Assembly (NCBI RefSeq): GCF_001010945.1
Contig: NZ_LBHB01000001.1
Coordinates: 620,001-684,000 of the forward strand
Source: Aurantiacibacter luteus
GTDB taxonomy: Bacteria; Pseudomonadota; Alphaproteobacteria; Sphingomonadales; Sphingomonadaceae
Length of the DNA stretch: 64,000 bases
Direction: 5' to 3'
Positions 51,576 through 59,056 of this stretch are shown here, piece after piece; position 1 is the stretch's first letter; each line of letters begins with the position of its first letter. A program made the position numbers and the translations under genes. Under the pieces are notes generated by a model. The model saw nothing but the letters and a program-made list of their open reading frames with translations. It had not been told where the DNA came from and did no database searches.

Positions 51576-54020
51576 TCAGCCCCGCAGGCGGTCGATCGAC
51601 TGGGCCAGCGCCACGTAGAGCTTGCCCACCTCGCTGGACAGCAGCGTGACCGCGATGGAATTGCCGTCGCGGGTCGAGAGCACCTCGCGCAGCATCGCCT
51701 CGAAGTCGTGAATGTAGCGGTTCACCGTTTCGCGGAATTCGCCGTCGGCGTCGTAGACTTCGGCCACGGCGCGGCTTTCCTGCTTGTCCAGCAGGCGCAC
51801 CGCGCGACGCGTGAAGATGCCCCGGTCGCCGCGCAGGTAATTGGTCCACTGGGTATCGGACACCTCGTTCTCGAAGGCCTTGGCGATGTCGATGGCGGAG
51901 GAATTGAGCGCCTCCGTAATCAGCGCCATGCGCCGGGTGAACTCGCTGTCGACGCGCTCTTCGGCGCGCTCGCGTGCGTAGGCCACGCGGGCTTCGAGGT
52001 TGTGCGCCAGTGCATCGACCTCGCCCAGCTGGCTGCGCAGGGTCTCGGTCGTGGCGGCACCGCTTGCGCTGGCACGGGCGACGGCGGTTTCGAGTTCGGC
52101 GATGGCCTCGCTGGCATTGCGGTGAATGGCCTCGGCAATGCGGGTTCGGCTGTCCTCGGCGATGCGCTCCGCGATTTCGGCGATGACCTCGCGCTGATTG
52201 TCGCGCAGTCCCTCGAGCGCGCCCGTGGCTTCGCCGGAAAGCTGCCCCAGCGCGGCGCGCAGCTCGCCGCCGGTGCGCTCGGCCAGGCGCTCGCTTTCGG
52301 CGGCGAGGGCGGCCATGCGCTCCTCGAGCGCGCCCAACGTCTCCAGCGACGCCGCGCCGGTGTCGCGCGCCGTCTCGACGTGGGCGGAGAGCGTCTCGCC
52401 GCGCGTTGCCGCCTCGCCGATGAGGCCGTGAAGCCGCGCGGCCTCGTTGCCGAAACGGGCGAGCCGTCGCTCGGCCTCGGCGATGGAATCGGACAGGGCG
52501 CCCTGCGAATGGTCGGAGCCCGAACGGATGATCTCGAGCAGCCTTACGCTGTCATCGGTCAGCCGCGCGATGGTCGCGCCGCTGCTGTCGAGCACTGCGC
52601 GGCTCTGCTCCACCCGCTCCGCCAATACCTGTGCCGCGCCGCCCAGCGCATCGCCCGCGTCGCGGCTTTCCGCGGCCATGCGCTGCATCTCGGCATCGAG
52701 TTCGGCCATGCGTTCGGCCAGTGCATCGGCCCGCCTGGTCATGCCCGCGGCGTGCGCAATCTGCGCGTCCTGCCGCTCGTGCATGGCGGTATCGATGGCG
52801 AGCAGGCGCGCATCGAGCGCGGCAAGACGCTCGCTTGCGCTCGTCACGGCGGCTTCGTCTGCCTGGGCGATGCTCGTGATCGCTGCATTCATGCGCTCTT
52901 CCAGCGCGGCGATGCCATCACTCCACTGGCCCAAGGCCCGGTCGCGTCCGTCGCCCAGCGAGGCGATGACGCGCTGGCCGTCCGCCTCGAGCGCTGCAAG
53001 CCGCTCGCGCATGGCGGCCAACGCAGCTTCACCCGCCTCGCGCTGCGCAATGTCGTGCGCGCGCAATTCTTCGGCGACGGCAGCTGCGCGGGTGCGGATC
53101 GAGGCGATGGCCTCCTCCTGCGACATGGCAAGATCGGCGCGGAACCCTTCGCTGACGCGGCGCAGCTTCTCGAACCGCTCCTTGGTCGCCTCGCCCAGCG
53201 CGCTGACCTGGCTGTCGAACAGTTCGAGCGTGGCGCCCACGCGTTCTGCGATGCGCTCGACGTGGCTTTCGCTGGCCTCGCCGAACTGGTTGAGGCGGTC
53301 GAACCCGGTCACCAGCGCTTCGATGTGGCCCTGCGCCACGTTGCCCGCGTTGCCGATCTGGTTGGTCATGTCGCGCGCGGCGTTGGCGACCACGGGCAGG
53401 TGATCGCGCAGGCTCGTCATGTTGGCGAGCGCGGTGTCGCTGACGGTGCCGATCTGCTCGACCTGCGCGCCGTTCTCGCGAATAAGATTTTGCAGCCGGT
53501 CGGCGTTGGTGGAAAGCCGCTCGTTCGCGAGGCGTCCCAGAGTCTCGAGATCGCGCGACTGGGCGGCGATGAAATCGCGGGCGATGGCCAGTTCGCGGTT
53601 CACGATGCCGAGGCGGCTCTCGAGCTGGGCAGATTCGTGCGAGAGCGCGCGCGCGGCATCGGTGAAGCGGTTGGCTTCGCGCCGGCTGTTGCGCATGGCG
53701 AGCAGCCACAGGCCGACCACGAGGATCACCGGCAGCGACCATTGGCCGACCCAGTCGATCCATTGCTGCGGGCCTGCGCCGCCGAGCATCTGGGAGAAAT
53801 TGGCCCAGGCGAAGAACACGGTCCATCCAAGCACCGCCAGGATCGCAAGTGCCGGGACGGCCCAGGCGAAGCGCGGGCGAGCGGGGTGCTGCTCCTCGTC
53901 CTCGACCCAGAATTGCTCCGCCTCGACCTCCGCCTCGTCCTCGTAGGGCTGCTGCAGCTCCAACGTCGCGGGGTCTGCTGCCTCGTCCGACGTGCCGTAA
54001 TCGGGCTCCGGATGGACCAT
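51576..54020 (-). CDS. Two-TM long coiled-coil protein, TipN-like candidate
   Basis: An 814-residue protein. An acidic N-terminus precedes two membrane helices (FAWAVPALAILAVLGWTVFF and SLPVILVVGLWLLAM). Nearly 600 residues of helical coiled coil follow, rich in Ala, Glu, Arg and Leu. The C-terminal ~80 residues have a conserved-looking end with GIFTRRAVRLLDKQE and NRYIHDFEAMLREVL. This layout matches the Caulobacter polarity factor TipN, and I think the C-terminal block resembles it, but I could not align them here. I chose ATG 54020, with GGAG 9 bases upstream; ATG 54062 would add 14 residues. Confidence 0.75.
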   Translation of the reverse strand: MVHPEPDYGTSDEAADPATLELQQPYEDEAEVEAEQFWVEDEEQHPARPRFAWAVPALAILAVLGWTVFFAWANFSQMLGGAGPQQWIDWVGQWSLPVILVVGLWLLAMRNSRREANRFTDAARALSHESAQLESRLGIVNRELAIARDFIAAQSRDLETLGRLANERLSTNADRLQNLIRENGAQVEQIGTVSDTALANMTSLRDHLPVVANAARDMTNQIGNAGNVAQGHIEALVTGFDRLNQFGEASESHVERIAERVGATLELFDSQVSALGEATKERFEKLRRVSEGFRADLAMSQEEAIASIRTRAAAVAEELRAHDIAQREAGEAALAAMRERLAALEADGQRVIASLGDGRDRALGQWSDGIAALEERMNAAITSIAQADEAAVTSASERLAALDARLLAIDTAMHERQDAQIAHAAGMTRRADALAERMAELDAEMQRMAAESRDAGDALGGAAQVLAERVEQSRAVLDSSGATIARLTDDSVRLLEIIRSGSDHSQGALSDSIAEAERRLARFGNEAARLHGLIGEAATRGETLSAHVETARDTGAASLETLGALEERMAALAAESERLAERTGGELRAALGQLSGEATGALEGLRDNQREVIAEIAERIAEDSRTRIAEAIHRNASEAIAELETAVARASASGAATTETLRSQLGEVDALAHNLEARVAYARERAEERVDSEFTRRMALITEALNSSAIDIAKAFENEVSDTQWTNYLRGDRGIFTRRAVRLLDKQESRAVAEVYDADGEFRETVNRYIHDFEAMLREVLSTRDGNSIAVTLLSSEVGKLYVALAQSIDRLRG

Positions 54021-54255
54021 GTCGGCATTCTCCAGCGGCAGGAAATTTCGGCGGCGTGTCATGCCGGGACATCTATCAGATTGGCATGCGCGTGAAACCC
54101 CGTCCGATCCCGTTGTCCGCCATCCACTTGCGCGCACTCGCTTTCCATCGCGGTTTCGCAACGCTTTTCCGCGCTGCCGCAACGAGGCGGCTTGGCAGGA
54201 GCGGGCGGCCTGCCTAGCGTGCGCCGCTCACGATGGACGACCGGGAGCGAGACAT

Positions 54256-55419
54256 TTGCGGGCCGCACTGATCAGCCTGCCACGGCCCGAAGAGGGCGAG
54301 GCCGAGGTTCCGGCCATCGCCGGAAAGAGCGTGGCCGAACGCCAGCTCCTGTTCGCCAAGGCCTGCGGCTGCACCGCTGCGATCGCCTTCGGAGGAGGGG
54401 CTTCTGCGGCGGCGGTGGCCCTGCGCCACGCGGCGGAACGCGAAGACATGCGCTTCCAGGTGATCTCGAGCGCCCACGCGCTCCCCGGCGCCATCGCCGA
54501 CGACGACAGCCTGATGGTGTTTCAGCCCGCCATGCTGCCGGAGGCGCGGCAGGCGCTCGACCTGCTGCGCGCCGAGGGAGAGCGGATGCTGATCGTCTCC
54601 GCCGGGCCCGGCACCAGCGCCGGGTTCGAACGCATCGACCTCGACCGCGCCTGGGCCGGCGCGATGACGATTCCGGGCAAGTGGCTCGGCCGCCTCATCA
54701 GCCTTCCCGAGGATGCGGCGCCTCATGCCGCGCTGCTCAGAATCGCGTTGCAGATGCGCCTGCCCGAAGCCCGGCTCGACCAGTCGCTGCTCGACGACGG
54801 ACGCTGGATGGTGGTGCGCGATGCCGCCTCGGCACAGCGCCGAGAGGCGACGTGGCTACGCAGCCACCTGGGCGACACTCCGCCGACCGCGCCGTCGCGT
54901 TGGCTGGCGCAGCGAATCGTCGTGCGCGCGGGAGGCTGGTTGATGGACCGGCCCTTCGCCCGGCCCATGCTCGCCGTACTGTCGATGGGCCTGCTGGGCG
55001 GTGCGCTTGCAGCGGCGTTTAACGCGCTGCCGGTGGTCGCCTTCGCACTGACAGCGCTGGCCGTGCCGACGATCGAGAGCTTCCTCGCGCTGTCCCGACT
55101 TGCCGTCGCGCCGTTCGGTGCCATCGGGCGCTTGCCATGGCTGCGGCGCATCGTCGACCTGACCCTTCTGGCCATCGGGGTGCTGGCGATCGAGGGCGAA
55201 TGGCAGCGGGCGCTGTTCCCGCCGCTGGTGCTGGGCACCGGGCTGCTGCTTCTCGACCGCGACCGCGTGCCAACCTATGCCGAGCCCTTGCGCGACCAGG
55301 CGCTGGTGGCGCTGCTGGTGGCGGCGGTCGCCGCACTGACCACGCCGGAGATGGCTATCATGCTTGCAGGGGTGTTGGTCATCGGCGCAAATCTTCTGCC
55401 TCGCGGGGGCGAGGGATAA
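54256..55419 (+). CDS. Membrane protein with nucleotidyltransferase-like N-terminus
   Basis: A 387-residue protein starting at TTG 54256, after GGGAGCGAG. The first ~190 residues resemble a degenerate GT-A nucleotidyltransferase fold: VPAIAGKSVAERQLLFAKACGC, then GPGTSAGFERIDLDRAWAGAMTIPG. The classical nucleotide loop is not obvious. After residue ~220 there are about six membrane segments. The architecture recalls bifunctional nucleotidyltransferase-phosphatidyltransferases of polyol phosphate lipids, but I do not see the CDP-alcohol motif DGxxAR. Function unknown. It is divergent from the coiled-coil gene. Confidence 0.7.
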   Translation: MRAALISLPRPEEGEAEVPAIAGKSVAERQLLFAKACGCTAAIAFGGGASAAAVALRHAAEREDMRFQVISSAHALPGAIADDDSLMVFQPAMLPEARQALDLLRAEGERMLIVSAGPGTSAGFERIDLDRAWAGAMTIPGKWLGRLISLPEDAAPHAALLRIALQMRLPEARLDQSLLDDGRWMVVRDAASAQRREATWLRSHLGDTPPTAPSRWLAQRIVVRAGGWLMDRPFARPMLAVLSMGLLGGALAAAFNALPVVAFALTALAVPTIESFLALSRLAVAPFGAIGRLPWLRRIVDLTLLAIGVLAIEGEWQRALFPPLVLGTGLLLLDRDRVPTYAEPLRDQALVALLVAAVAALTTPEMAIMLAGVLVIGANLLPRGGEG

Positions 55420-55454: not shown

Positions 55455-56414
55455 ATGAGCGATACCGCCCAGGCCGGTCCATCCGTGGAAGCGGTGGAAG
55501 ACATGCTTCGTGACGAGCTGGCGCATGGCGACGTGATGATCGCCACGGCGCGCCCGATCCTGCGCCATCTCCTCGCGAACGACGACCACGCGCTGTTCAG
55601 CGACGAGGTGATCGCGCGGGTGCGCGGGATGATGGTGAATGTGGCCCGGCAACTGCTCTTCGCTCTCGCGCAGCACGCCGAGCTGGAAGATCCGGCCCGC
55701 TTCGCCGACGCGCGCGAGGACGCCATCGCCCTCGCGTTGCTGGAGGATGGCGACTTTTTGGGCCACGCCCACGCGCTGACCATCGAGGCGCAGATCGCCC
55801 AGCGCCTGCAGCATCGCAGCGGCATCGATGCCGTCCTCTCGCCGCTGTTGCAGGAACAGGCGGCATCGAGCGATCCGGCCATGGCGGCGGCGGCCATGCA
55901 GGTGCTGTCGGCGCAGGCGCGCTTCATGCAGGCGCAGCGGCGCATGGAACTGCCGCTGGCGGAATTGCCTGCGGACTTGCTCGAGCGCGCCCTCGCACTG
56001 CTCGCGGATCACAACGAGGACATGGCCGTGGCGGCTCAGTCGGCCGTGGCTGCGCTGAACGCCGGTTACAAGGCCGAGGATCGCCGCGTCGCCCGTACGC
56101 TTGCGCTGGTCAGCGCCATGCAACACCGGGCAAAACGCGCGCTGGAGGTCGATCACGCCGGAGTAGCCCTCTTCGTTTCCGCCCTCGGCATGGCTTCGAA
56201 CCAGGACCGCGATACGGTAATCCTCTCGCTCGGCGAAAACCAGTGCGCGCGCCTGGCACTCAGCCTTCGCGCCGCGGGCCTGGGGCAGAAAGCGGTGGAG
56301 GACCAGTTCCTCTATCTCCATCCCGATATCGAACTGCCCGACGGTTTCGATCGCGTGCGTGTCGACCGGGCGGCCACGATGCTCGCCGCCGCGCGCCTGC
56401 ACGAGGACGCTTGA
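55455..56414 (+). CDS. Helical repeat protein of unknown function, paired with kinase-like gene
   Basis: A 319-residue soluble, mostly helical protein, starting MSDTAQAGPSVEAVEDMLRDEL. Hydrophobic positions repeat at roughly 30-40-residue intervals, suggesting HEAT-like alpha repeats (ANDDHALFSDEVIARVRGMM, then AEDRRVARTLALVSAMQHRA). It resembles the DUF2336-type alphaproteobacterial proteins in style, but I cannot confirm that. It ends 4 bases before the histidine-kinase-like gene, so the two are likely cotranscribed and may work together. Confidence 0.7.
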   Translation: MSDTAQAGPSVEAVEDMLRDELAHGDVMIATARPILRHLLANDDHALFSDEVIARVRGMMVNVARQLLFALAQHAELEDPARFADAREDAIALALLEDGDFLGHAHALTIEAQIAQRLQHRSGIDAVLSPLLQEQAASSDPAMAAAAMQVLSAQARFMQAQRRMELPLAELPADLLERALALLADHNEDMAVAAQSAVAALNAGYKAEDRRVARTLALVSAMQHRAKRALEVDHAGVALFVSALGMASNQDRDTVILSLGENQCARLALSLRAAGLGQKAVEDQFLYLHPDIELPDGFDRVRVDRAATMLAAARLHEDA

Positions 56415-57769: not shown

Positions 57770-59056
57770 TCAGCGCTGGTCGATGGGCACGTAGTCGCGC
57801 TCGGTCGGACCGGTGTAGAGCTGGCGCGGGCGGCCAATGACCTGGTCGGGATCGGAAATCATTTCGTTCCACTGCGCAACCCAGCCGACCGTGCGCGCCA
57901 GCGCGAACAGCGCCGTGAACATGGTGGTCGGGAAACCGATGGCCGAAAGGATCACGCCCGAGTAGAAATCGACGTTGGGAAACAGCTTCTTCTCGACGAA
58001 ATAATCGTCCTTCAGCGCCATTTCCTCCAGCTGCAACGCGGTCTCGAACACCGGGTCGCTGACCTTCAGGGCATCGAACACCTCGCGCACGGTCTTCTGC
58101 ATCACCGTCGCGCGCGGGTCGTAGTTCTTGTACACGCGGTGGCCGAAACCCATCAGGCGGAACGGGTCGTTCTTGTCCTTGGCGCGCTCGATATAGTGCG
58201 GGATGCGATCGGGCGTGCCGATCTCGCGCAGCATGTTGAGCGCCGCCTCGTTCGCGCCGCCGTGTGCCGGACCCCAGAGGCAGGCGATACCGGCCGAGAT
58301 GCAGGCGAACGGATTGGCGCCGGAGGATCCGGCGAGGCGCACGGTGCTGGTCGAGGCGTTCTGCTCGTGGTCGGCGTGGAGGATGAAGATCCGGTCCATC
58401 GCCTTTTCGACGGCGGGCACCACCTCGTATTCCTCGGCCGGAACGCCGAAGGTCATGCGCAGGAAGTTGCCCGTATAGCTGAGCGAATTGTCGGGATAGA
58501 GGAAGGGCTGGCCGACCGAGTACTTGTACGCCATGGCCGCGATCGTCGGCATCTTGGCCAGCAGGCGGTGGCTGGCGATCTTGCGCTGTTCGGGATCGGA
58601 GATGTCGGTGCTGTCGTGGTAGAACGCCGACAGAGCGCCGACCACGCCGCACATGATCGCCATCGGGTGCGCGTCGCGGCGGAAGCCCTGGTAGAACTGC
58701 CGCATCTGATCGTGGATCATGGTGTGGTAGGTGATCGTCTGCGTGAAGTCGTCGAGCTCTTCCTTGCTCGGCAGTTCGCCGTTCAGCAGCAGGTAGCTGA
58801 CTTCCATGAAGCTGGAATGCTCGGCCAGTTGGCCGATGGGATAGCCACGGTGCAGTAGCACGCCCTCGTCCCCGTCGATGTAGGTCAGCGCGCTTTCGCA
58901 GCTGGCGGTCGATTTGTAGCCGGGATCATAGGTGAAGCGCCCGGTGCTGCCGTAAAGCTTGCGGATGTCGATGACATCCGGGCCCACGGTGCCTTCCAGC
59001 GTGGGAAAGTGATAGGTCTCGCCGCCCACTTCCAGATCCGCCTGCTTGTCCGCCAA
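57770..59056 (-). CDS. gltA: Citrate synthase
   Basis: A 428-residue citrate synthase of the hexameric type II class. Active-site phrases: [43 protein letters not shown] with its His, ILHADHEQN, and [14 protein letters not shown] with the second His. The acid Asp is in KVSDPV or nearby. Starts [18 protein letters not shown]. It converges tightly with the kinase-like gene (4-base gap) and follows gltX on the minus strand. Confidence 0.97.

Follow-up and report, generated by a model that had tools for sequence, protein, structure and literature searches.

TipN, a protein of 882 amino acid (aa) residues (PMC13170164), has been called Caulobacter-specific (PMC4460556) and is said to be absent from most alphaproteobacteria (PMC5182065). 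GPR of Agrobacterium is termed 'analogous' to TipN in one account (PMC13170164), and since another describes it 'with similarity' to TipN (PMC8546619), a link between the two is partly in print already. RgsE of Sinorhizobium meliloti has been characterised as a 2,089-aa homologue of GPR that has two membrane helices in addition to its apolipoprotein domains (PMC7327166). The passages on TipN and GPR cited here hold no description of a shared C-terminal domain, and literature searches combining TipN with RgsE, or TipN with Sphingomonadales, returned no match (TipN with Sphingomonas did give matches). The current study concerns a window of 64,000 nucleotides from Aurantiacibacter luteus, this being the whole stretch of DNA analysed, in which a minus-strand gene at 51576..54062 encodes a membrane-anchored coiled-coil protein of 828 aa, hereafter the scaffold gene. 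We judge it probable that this gene is the sphingomonad member of a single alphaproteobacterial family of inner-membrane-anchored pole scaffolds, which includes RgsE/GPR, known from polar growth in the Rhizobiales, and, more remotely, TipN, the new-pole marker of Caulobacter.

Gene, architecture and C-terminal domain

The open reading frame runs exactly from 54062 to 51576, and its start is shared by relatives, which open at the same site with M[T/S]RRR, MSRKR or MTNRKR; an alternative start at 54020 was rejected because the upstream start is common to them. In comparisons with ten relatives the third codon position was the most variable in all ten pairs (for L002, 257, 177 and 453 differences at positions 1, 2 and 3, respectively), while amino acid identity amounted to 71–84% in the C-terminal domain, 34–71% in the hairpin and adjoining stretch and 36–55% in the rod. 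The excess of third-position changes in every pair, together with this pattern of identity by region, identifies 51576–54062 as a genuine gene. The long plus-strand frame at 51708–54095 is most likely its antisense shadow. The genome is of the Erythrobacteraceae type; the closest named matches of the protein's tail are from Aurantiacibacter and Erythrobacter, and the C-terminal profile has one match at E ≤ 0.001 in the organism's own genome.

Four regions were distinguished in the protein, all encoded on the minus strand. An acidic N-terminal tail (residues 1–62; 53877..54062), presumably on the cytoplasmic side, is weakly conserved (15–52% identity in the ten relatives) and is followed by a two-helix membrane hairpin (residues 65–123; 53694..53870), in which simple hydropathy places hydrophobic helices at residues 65–83 and 105–123; the hairpin is predicted to lie in the membrane with the bulk of the protein in the cytoplasm. 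A long helical rod, probably a coiled coil (residues 131–700; 51963..53672), contains one proline in 570 residues and displays a hydrophobic periodicity at 3.5–3.67 residues (mean 0.50–0.54 versus a maximum of 0.39–0.44 in 50 shuffles). The C-terminal domain (residues 706–826; 51585..51947), which finds profile matches across the class, is by far the most conserved part of the protein. The original prediction had credited the protein with the layout of TipN, i.e. two N-terminal membrane helices, a very long coiled coil and a distinct C-terminal block, and all three elements are present; the coiled coil is read from two properties, the proline count and the periodicity, and the block, although real, spans approximately 120 residues rather than the 80 or so supposed.

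The top NCBIfam match of the protein is ZorA (E 2.9e-5), which might point to an anti-phage ZorA-like or motor-like coiled-coil protein. However, this match reaches 22.6 bits against a cut-off of 190, is confined to the rod (residues 167–351) and omits the N-terminal part of the ZorA profile, while the rod of RgsE gives the same kind of match at 69.8 bits. Such a function is accordingly extremely improbable, and an identity as ZorA or another defence protein was rejected, the match being limited to the rod and far under the cut-off. The Pfam matches (E 0.0085–0.3) were also rejected, each falling under its own cut-off.

No Pfam or NCBIfam match covers the C-terminal domain at residues 706–826. 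With the single tail sequence as query the domain was found in 142 of 385 alphaproteobacterial genomes, and a 27-row profile raised this number to 150, of which 143 contain a single match; in a phylum-wide sample of 349 genomes, to which other classes contribute an unspecified share, the 87 with a match all belong to the same class. These results suggest a family much wider than its two famous members. Open frames with the domain mostly measure from approximately 450 to approximately 2,870 codons, some being shorter (at contig ends, or frames of 330–480 codons), and it follows that the rod varies widely in length across the family while both ends persist. Among 20 members from other lineages the C-terminal domain was present in all, and at least two N-terminal hydrophobic segments were recorded in 18 by simple hydropathy, a method that in some members picks out the final helix of the C-terminal domain as well; a conserved stretch follows the N-terminal helices in members of many lineages. 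Genomes of one family (f22; e.g. G252:C3:412822-413112 and G833:C6:11459-11803) hold weak domain matches (E 7e-4 to 1e-8) in short frames of approximately 330–480 codons, which may encode a form of the protein that lacks the rod.

The domain is all-helical in a predicted model of middling confidence (mean predicted local distance difference test score 69.8). A Foldseek search with this model gave a best E of 0.68, absence from such lists excluding nothing, and VIA-align gave a best Z of 5.1 (root mean square deviation 4.1, 92 residues aligned), a range common for helical bundles. Among solved structures searched by sequence the best E was 0.0056 in the rod and 1.2 for the tail, nothing resembling the domain being retrieved.

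Relationship to RgsE/GPR and TipN

When named plasmid records were searched with the domain, a match was obtained in a 3.7-Mb S. meliloti record, in a gene annotated as 'kinesin' whose 2,089-aa product contains 12 apolipoprotein stretches; the gene lies beside bc1 genes, which we take to be the neighbours of rgsE in this species. It was identified as rgsE because species, exact length and apolipoprotein domains agree. The tail of the window protein aligns with RgsE at 38% identity over 118 residues (pairwise E 2e-27), and the domain constitutes the last approximately 116 residues of RgsE (1973–2088, by hmmsearch). The domain profile scored 127.6 bits in RgsE, which is not among its rows, compared with 155.3 bits in the window protein, which is. 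Judged by sequence, RgsE/GPR is nearer than TipN to the window protein, of the two characterised relatives compared, and by way of its homologue RgsE the C-terminus of GPR would be the same domain. Removal of the last 10, 221 or 332 residues from Agrobacterium GPR was reported to leave complementation incomplete; paired foci persisted when 10 or 332 residues were missing and were lost, in depleted cells, when 221 were, and GPR was disturbed by GFP fused to its C-terminus (PMC8262873).

RgsE and GPR share with the window protein two N-terminal membrane helices, a long helical rod and, in GPR presumably, this domain, but are 2,089 and 2,115 aa long, respectively, with apolipoprotein-like repeats, compared with 828 aa. 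The window protein has no match to PF01442 (Apolipoprotein A1/A4/E) at E ≤ 1, and its rod spans approximately 570 residues, whereas GPR contains some 1,700 residues of continuous helix (PMC8262873); for these reasons it was not filed as GPR proper. A job as a GPR-like organiser of local wall growth, which would direct wall insertion rather than act as a TipN-like landmark, can be put forward tentatively. It would suit a protein whose nearer characterised relative is RgsE/GPR, given that loss of GPR rounds cells (PMC8262873) and depletion of RgsE yields irregular, strongly curved cells (PMC7327166), yet the short rod and the missing apolipoprotein match argue against it (the TipN candidate described below has no Pfam match at E ≤ 0.1).

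The Caulobacter genome required for the comparison with TipN was reached indirectly, from MipZ of the own genome to MipZ in PDB, and from there to genomes carrying an identical MipZ. Genomes G507 and G510 each encode this PDB sequence with 100% identity over 263 aa, and the uronate isomerase of G507, encoded approximately 5 kb from the TipN candidate, shows no difference to PDB 2Q01 over 486 aa; we presume that PDB 2XIT and 2Q01 come from C. crescentus, their records giving molecule names. A domain profile built without Caulobacteraceae gave one clear match in G507 (E 1.5e-9; the next 0.068), in a gene that encodes 882 aa from the start MKPKKRQP, which was our choice, or 888 from a start 18 bases upstream. 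This gene was taken as tipN on account of the 882-aa length and of the C. crescentus markers in its genome. G507, G510 and G484, the three Caulobacter genomes nearest the MipZ reference, each yielded only one clear match (E < 1e-8), and among 60 Caulobacteraceae genomes, a family whose assignment rests on its MipZ, 42 matched at E ≤ 0.001, a number that rises to 50 at E ≤ 1.

Profile methods connect the tails of the two groups. In hhalign comparisons the Caulobacteraceae tails (alignment A3, 13 of 23) matched the wide set (alignment A1, 27 of 34 tails) with E 4.7e-15 over 114 columns (score 85.2) and the close sphingomonad set with E 3.8e-7 over 72 columns (score 44.6), while reversed and block-shuffled controls scored far lower (best of 40 shuffles 26.7 for the wide set and 22.6 for the close set). 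An unfiltered hmmsearch with the Caulobacteraceae profile against the window protein itself gave E 6.3e-8. In 12 other genomes of the same genus this profile matched in nine at E ≤ 1 and in only seven at E < 1e-5, these seven matches lying in frames of 854–876 codons, by length the homologous gene. A second line of comparison was provided by a hairpin profile of 15 of 21 members, against which the six left out scored E 1.5e-16 to 3.1e-7. Four Caulobacter hairpins matched it at E 1.3e-8 (score 50.0; best of 40 shuffles 30.0), and the sphingomonad hairpins at E 2e-6 (probability 89, score 40.8), the margin over the best shuffle (33.1) being thin; the profile also reports L088, a relative in the genus of TipN, at E 1.1e-5. 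TipN resembles the window protein in length, in the order of hairpin, rod and C-terminal domain and through this remote profile homology, and it differs in a longer N-terminal tail ahead of the hairpin, in a tail that lacks BLASTP similarity and in a C-terminal domain on a long branch.

A tree of 42 C-terminal tails placed the 13 Caulobacteraceae in one group (100/100) and the window protein with four other sphingomonads (100/100). Several results weigh against a single family as the origin of all three proteins. BLASTP of the last 123 residues of the window protein against the TipN tail returned nothing at E ≤ 100, and full-length BLASTP against the TipN candidate gave chance alignments only (best E 3.5). 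When the own genome was searched reciprocally with the Caulobacteraceae profile, the window gene was missing from the matches at E ≤ 1, the sole report lying elsewhere (E 0.098). Taken singly, neither the window protein nor the C. crescentus TipN candidate is reported by the hairpin profile at E ≤ 10, and no match was obtained when sphingomonad and Caulobacteraceae hairpins were compared directly. In the tree the TipN branch measures 1.63 changes per column, and RgsE is placed away from the window protein, with weak support (87/61). Strict orthology is therefore unproven, and the tree supports one family without conferring a special RgsE or TipN identity on the window protein.

The long Caulobacteraceae branch and the failure of the two sets of hairpins to match directly could also be explained if TipN and the window family were not orthologues and had come to share the C-terminal domain by domain capture. 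This appears improbable when it is considered that the four Caulobacter hairpins match those of the wider family above the shuffled controls, that the parts stand in the same order, and that each of the three Caulobacter genomes contains a single clear match. By appearance, TipN and GPR/RgsE belong as divergent members to a single family of pole scaffolds, whose shared domain is unnamed in the libraries searched. The suggestion of a TipN-like protein consequently held in part: profile comparison of the C-terminus with TipN is significant with clean controls but BLASTP finds nothing at the tail, and although a family link to TipN exists, RgsE/GPR is the nearer relative and matches directly.

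Possible roles at the pole

If the single-family reading is adopted, the two-helix hairpin would anchor the protein in the inner membrane with most of it facing the cytoplasm, oligomerisation and reach would depend on the long helical rod, and the conserved C-terminal domain may serve as the docking site for a partner that many alphaproteobacteria share. Accumulation would take place at the division site, probably via Tol-Pal, and the protein would stay at both new poles after division, from where clients such as ParA/PopZ, flagellar or wall-synthesis factors might be recruited. Tol-Pal has been stated to be required for polar localisation of TipN (PMC7391070, citing Yeh et al. 2010), and an interaction between RgsE and TolQ was detected by two-hybrid assay and pull-down (PMC7327166); septal recruitment via Tol-Pal is favoured because TipN and RgsE both lead to this system. 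PodJ of Caulobacter, likened here by description only, is another membrane-bound coiled-coil pole scaffold (PMC10127582).

The window protein may be located at the new pole and perform the job of TipN or that of GPR. Its own genome encodes a DUF2497 protein, which we take to belong to the PopZ family, MipZ, alongside four weaker hits to its ATPase family, and flagellins, and the presence of these genes makes both TipN-type and GPR-type jobs possible. A TipN-like new-pole landmark for chromosome segregation and the flagellum, acting via ParA and PopZ, would fit these genes as well as the protein's 828-aa length, near that of TipN. We nevertheless consider it rather unlikely, as RgsE is closer in sequence than TipN, and the presence of partners is weak evidence given that a direct TipN–PopZ interaction was not found (PMC10127582).

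Neighbouring genes and meaning for the family

Past the 3' end of the scaffold gene, on the opposite strand, lie what appear to be nuoN, birA, coaX, a ribonuclease J gene and a small DUF1467-like gene, named by eye and by reference to an annotated Sphingomonas parapaucimobilis locus of similar order. Upstream and divergent are genes for two proteins without a Pfam family (plus strand, 54247–55416 and 55455–56414; neither Pfam at E ≤ 0.01 nor NCBIfam at E ≤ 0.001 gave a match), followed by a histidine kinase gene; in S. parapaucimobilis a histidine kinase gene and a pair of hypothetical genes stand in a similar order. At 57770–59056, 3.7 kb from the scaffold gene, the window contains what we take, from its sequence, to be a citrate synthase gene. 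Citrate synthase and TipN of Caulobacter are genetically linked (PMC7083601), and the proximity observed here is probably a coincidence. A large gene, the first part of which presumably represents methylmalonyl-CoA mutase, lies upstream of the scaffold gene at L089 and L119, loci from separate families.

Of the 22 sphingomonad loci that extend far enough upstream, a set to which the window and the query's own locus also belong, 19 have an Hpt-like gene divergently adjoining the scaffold gene; the three without it are the window, L009 and L011. Loci with an Hpt-like gene include L002–L008, L013–L020, L091, L115, L116, L114:3655-3945 and L113:3087-3455. The Hpt label is weak in sphingomonads: of six copies compared with Pfam, one passes the cut-off (L020), four fall under it and the sixth gives no match. 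In those sphingomonad copies with the motif printed, Q, E, M, L or W takes the place of the phospho-accepting histidine, H being present only in L008 and L020, and phosphotransfer may be lost in the copies in which the histidine is replaced. Among 25 loci of other lineages, an Hpt gene adjoins the scaffold gene or lies within approximately 1.2 kb in four (L113, which is the S. meliloti locus, L090, L128 and L129; Pfam E ≤ 4e-8), while of the remaining 21 a weak match was found in L126 and none in 20 by this search.

The pieces can be combined in a broader proposal, to which, taken as a whole, we assign an even chance. According to this proposal, TipN, GPR/RgsE and the sphingomonad protein would descend from one ancestral alphaproteobacterial scaffold, set at the division site via Tol-Pal and inherited as a mark of the new pole. 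Rod length would have been tuned to growth mode, the hairpin and C-terminal domain being kept as the working ends. TipN would seem confined to Caulobacter because its tail has diverged past the reach of simple searches, and the divergent Hpt-like protein would be a candidate partner in sphingomonads and some other lineages.

Of wider interest is the family to which the window gene points, the gene itself joining a known kind of pole scaffold. Descriptions of TipN as Caulobacter-specific or mostly missing elsewhere look too narrow if it forms one family with GPR, and the shared, unnamed domain makes TipN and GPR/RgsE one testable family. Deletion studies of the GPR C-terminus gain a defined domain as their target, and the sphingomonads gain a concrete candidate for a polarity gene.
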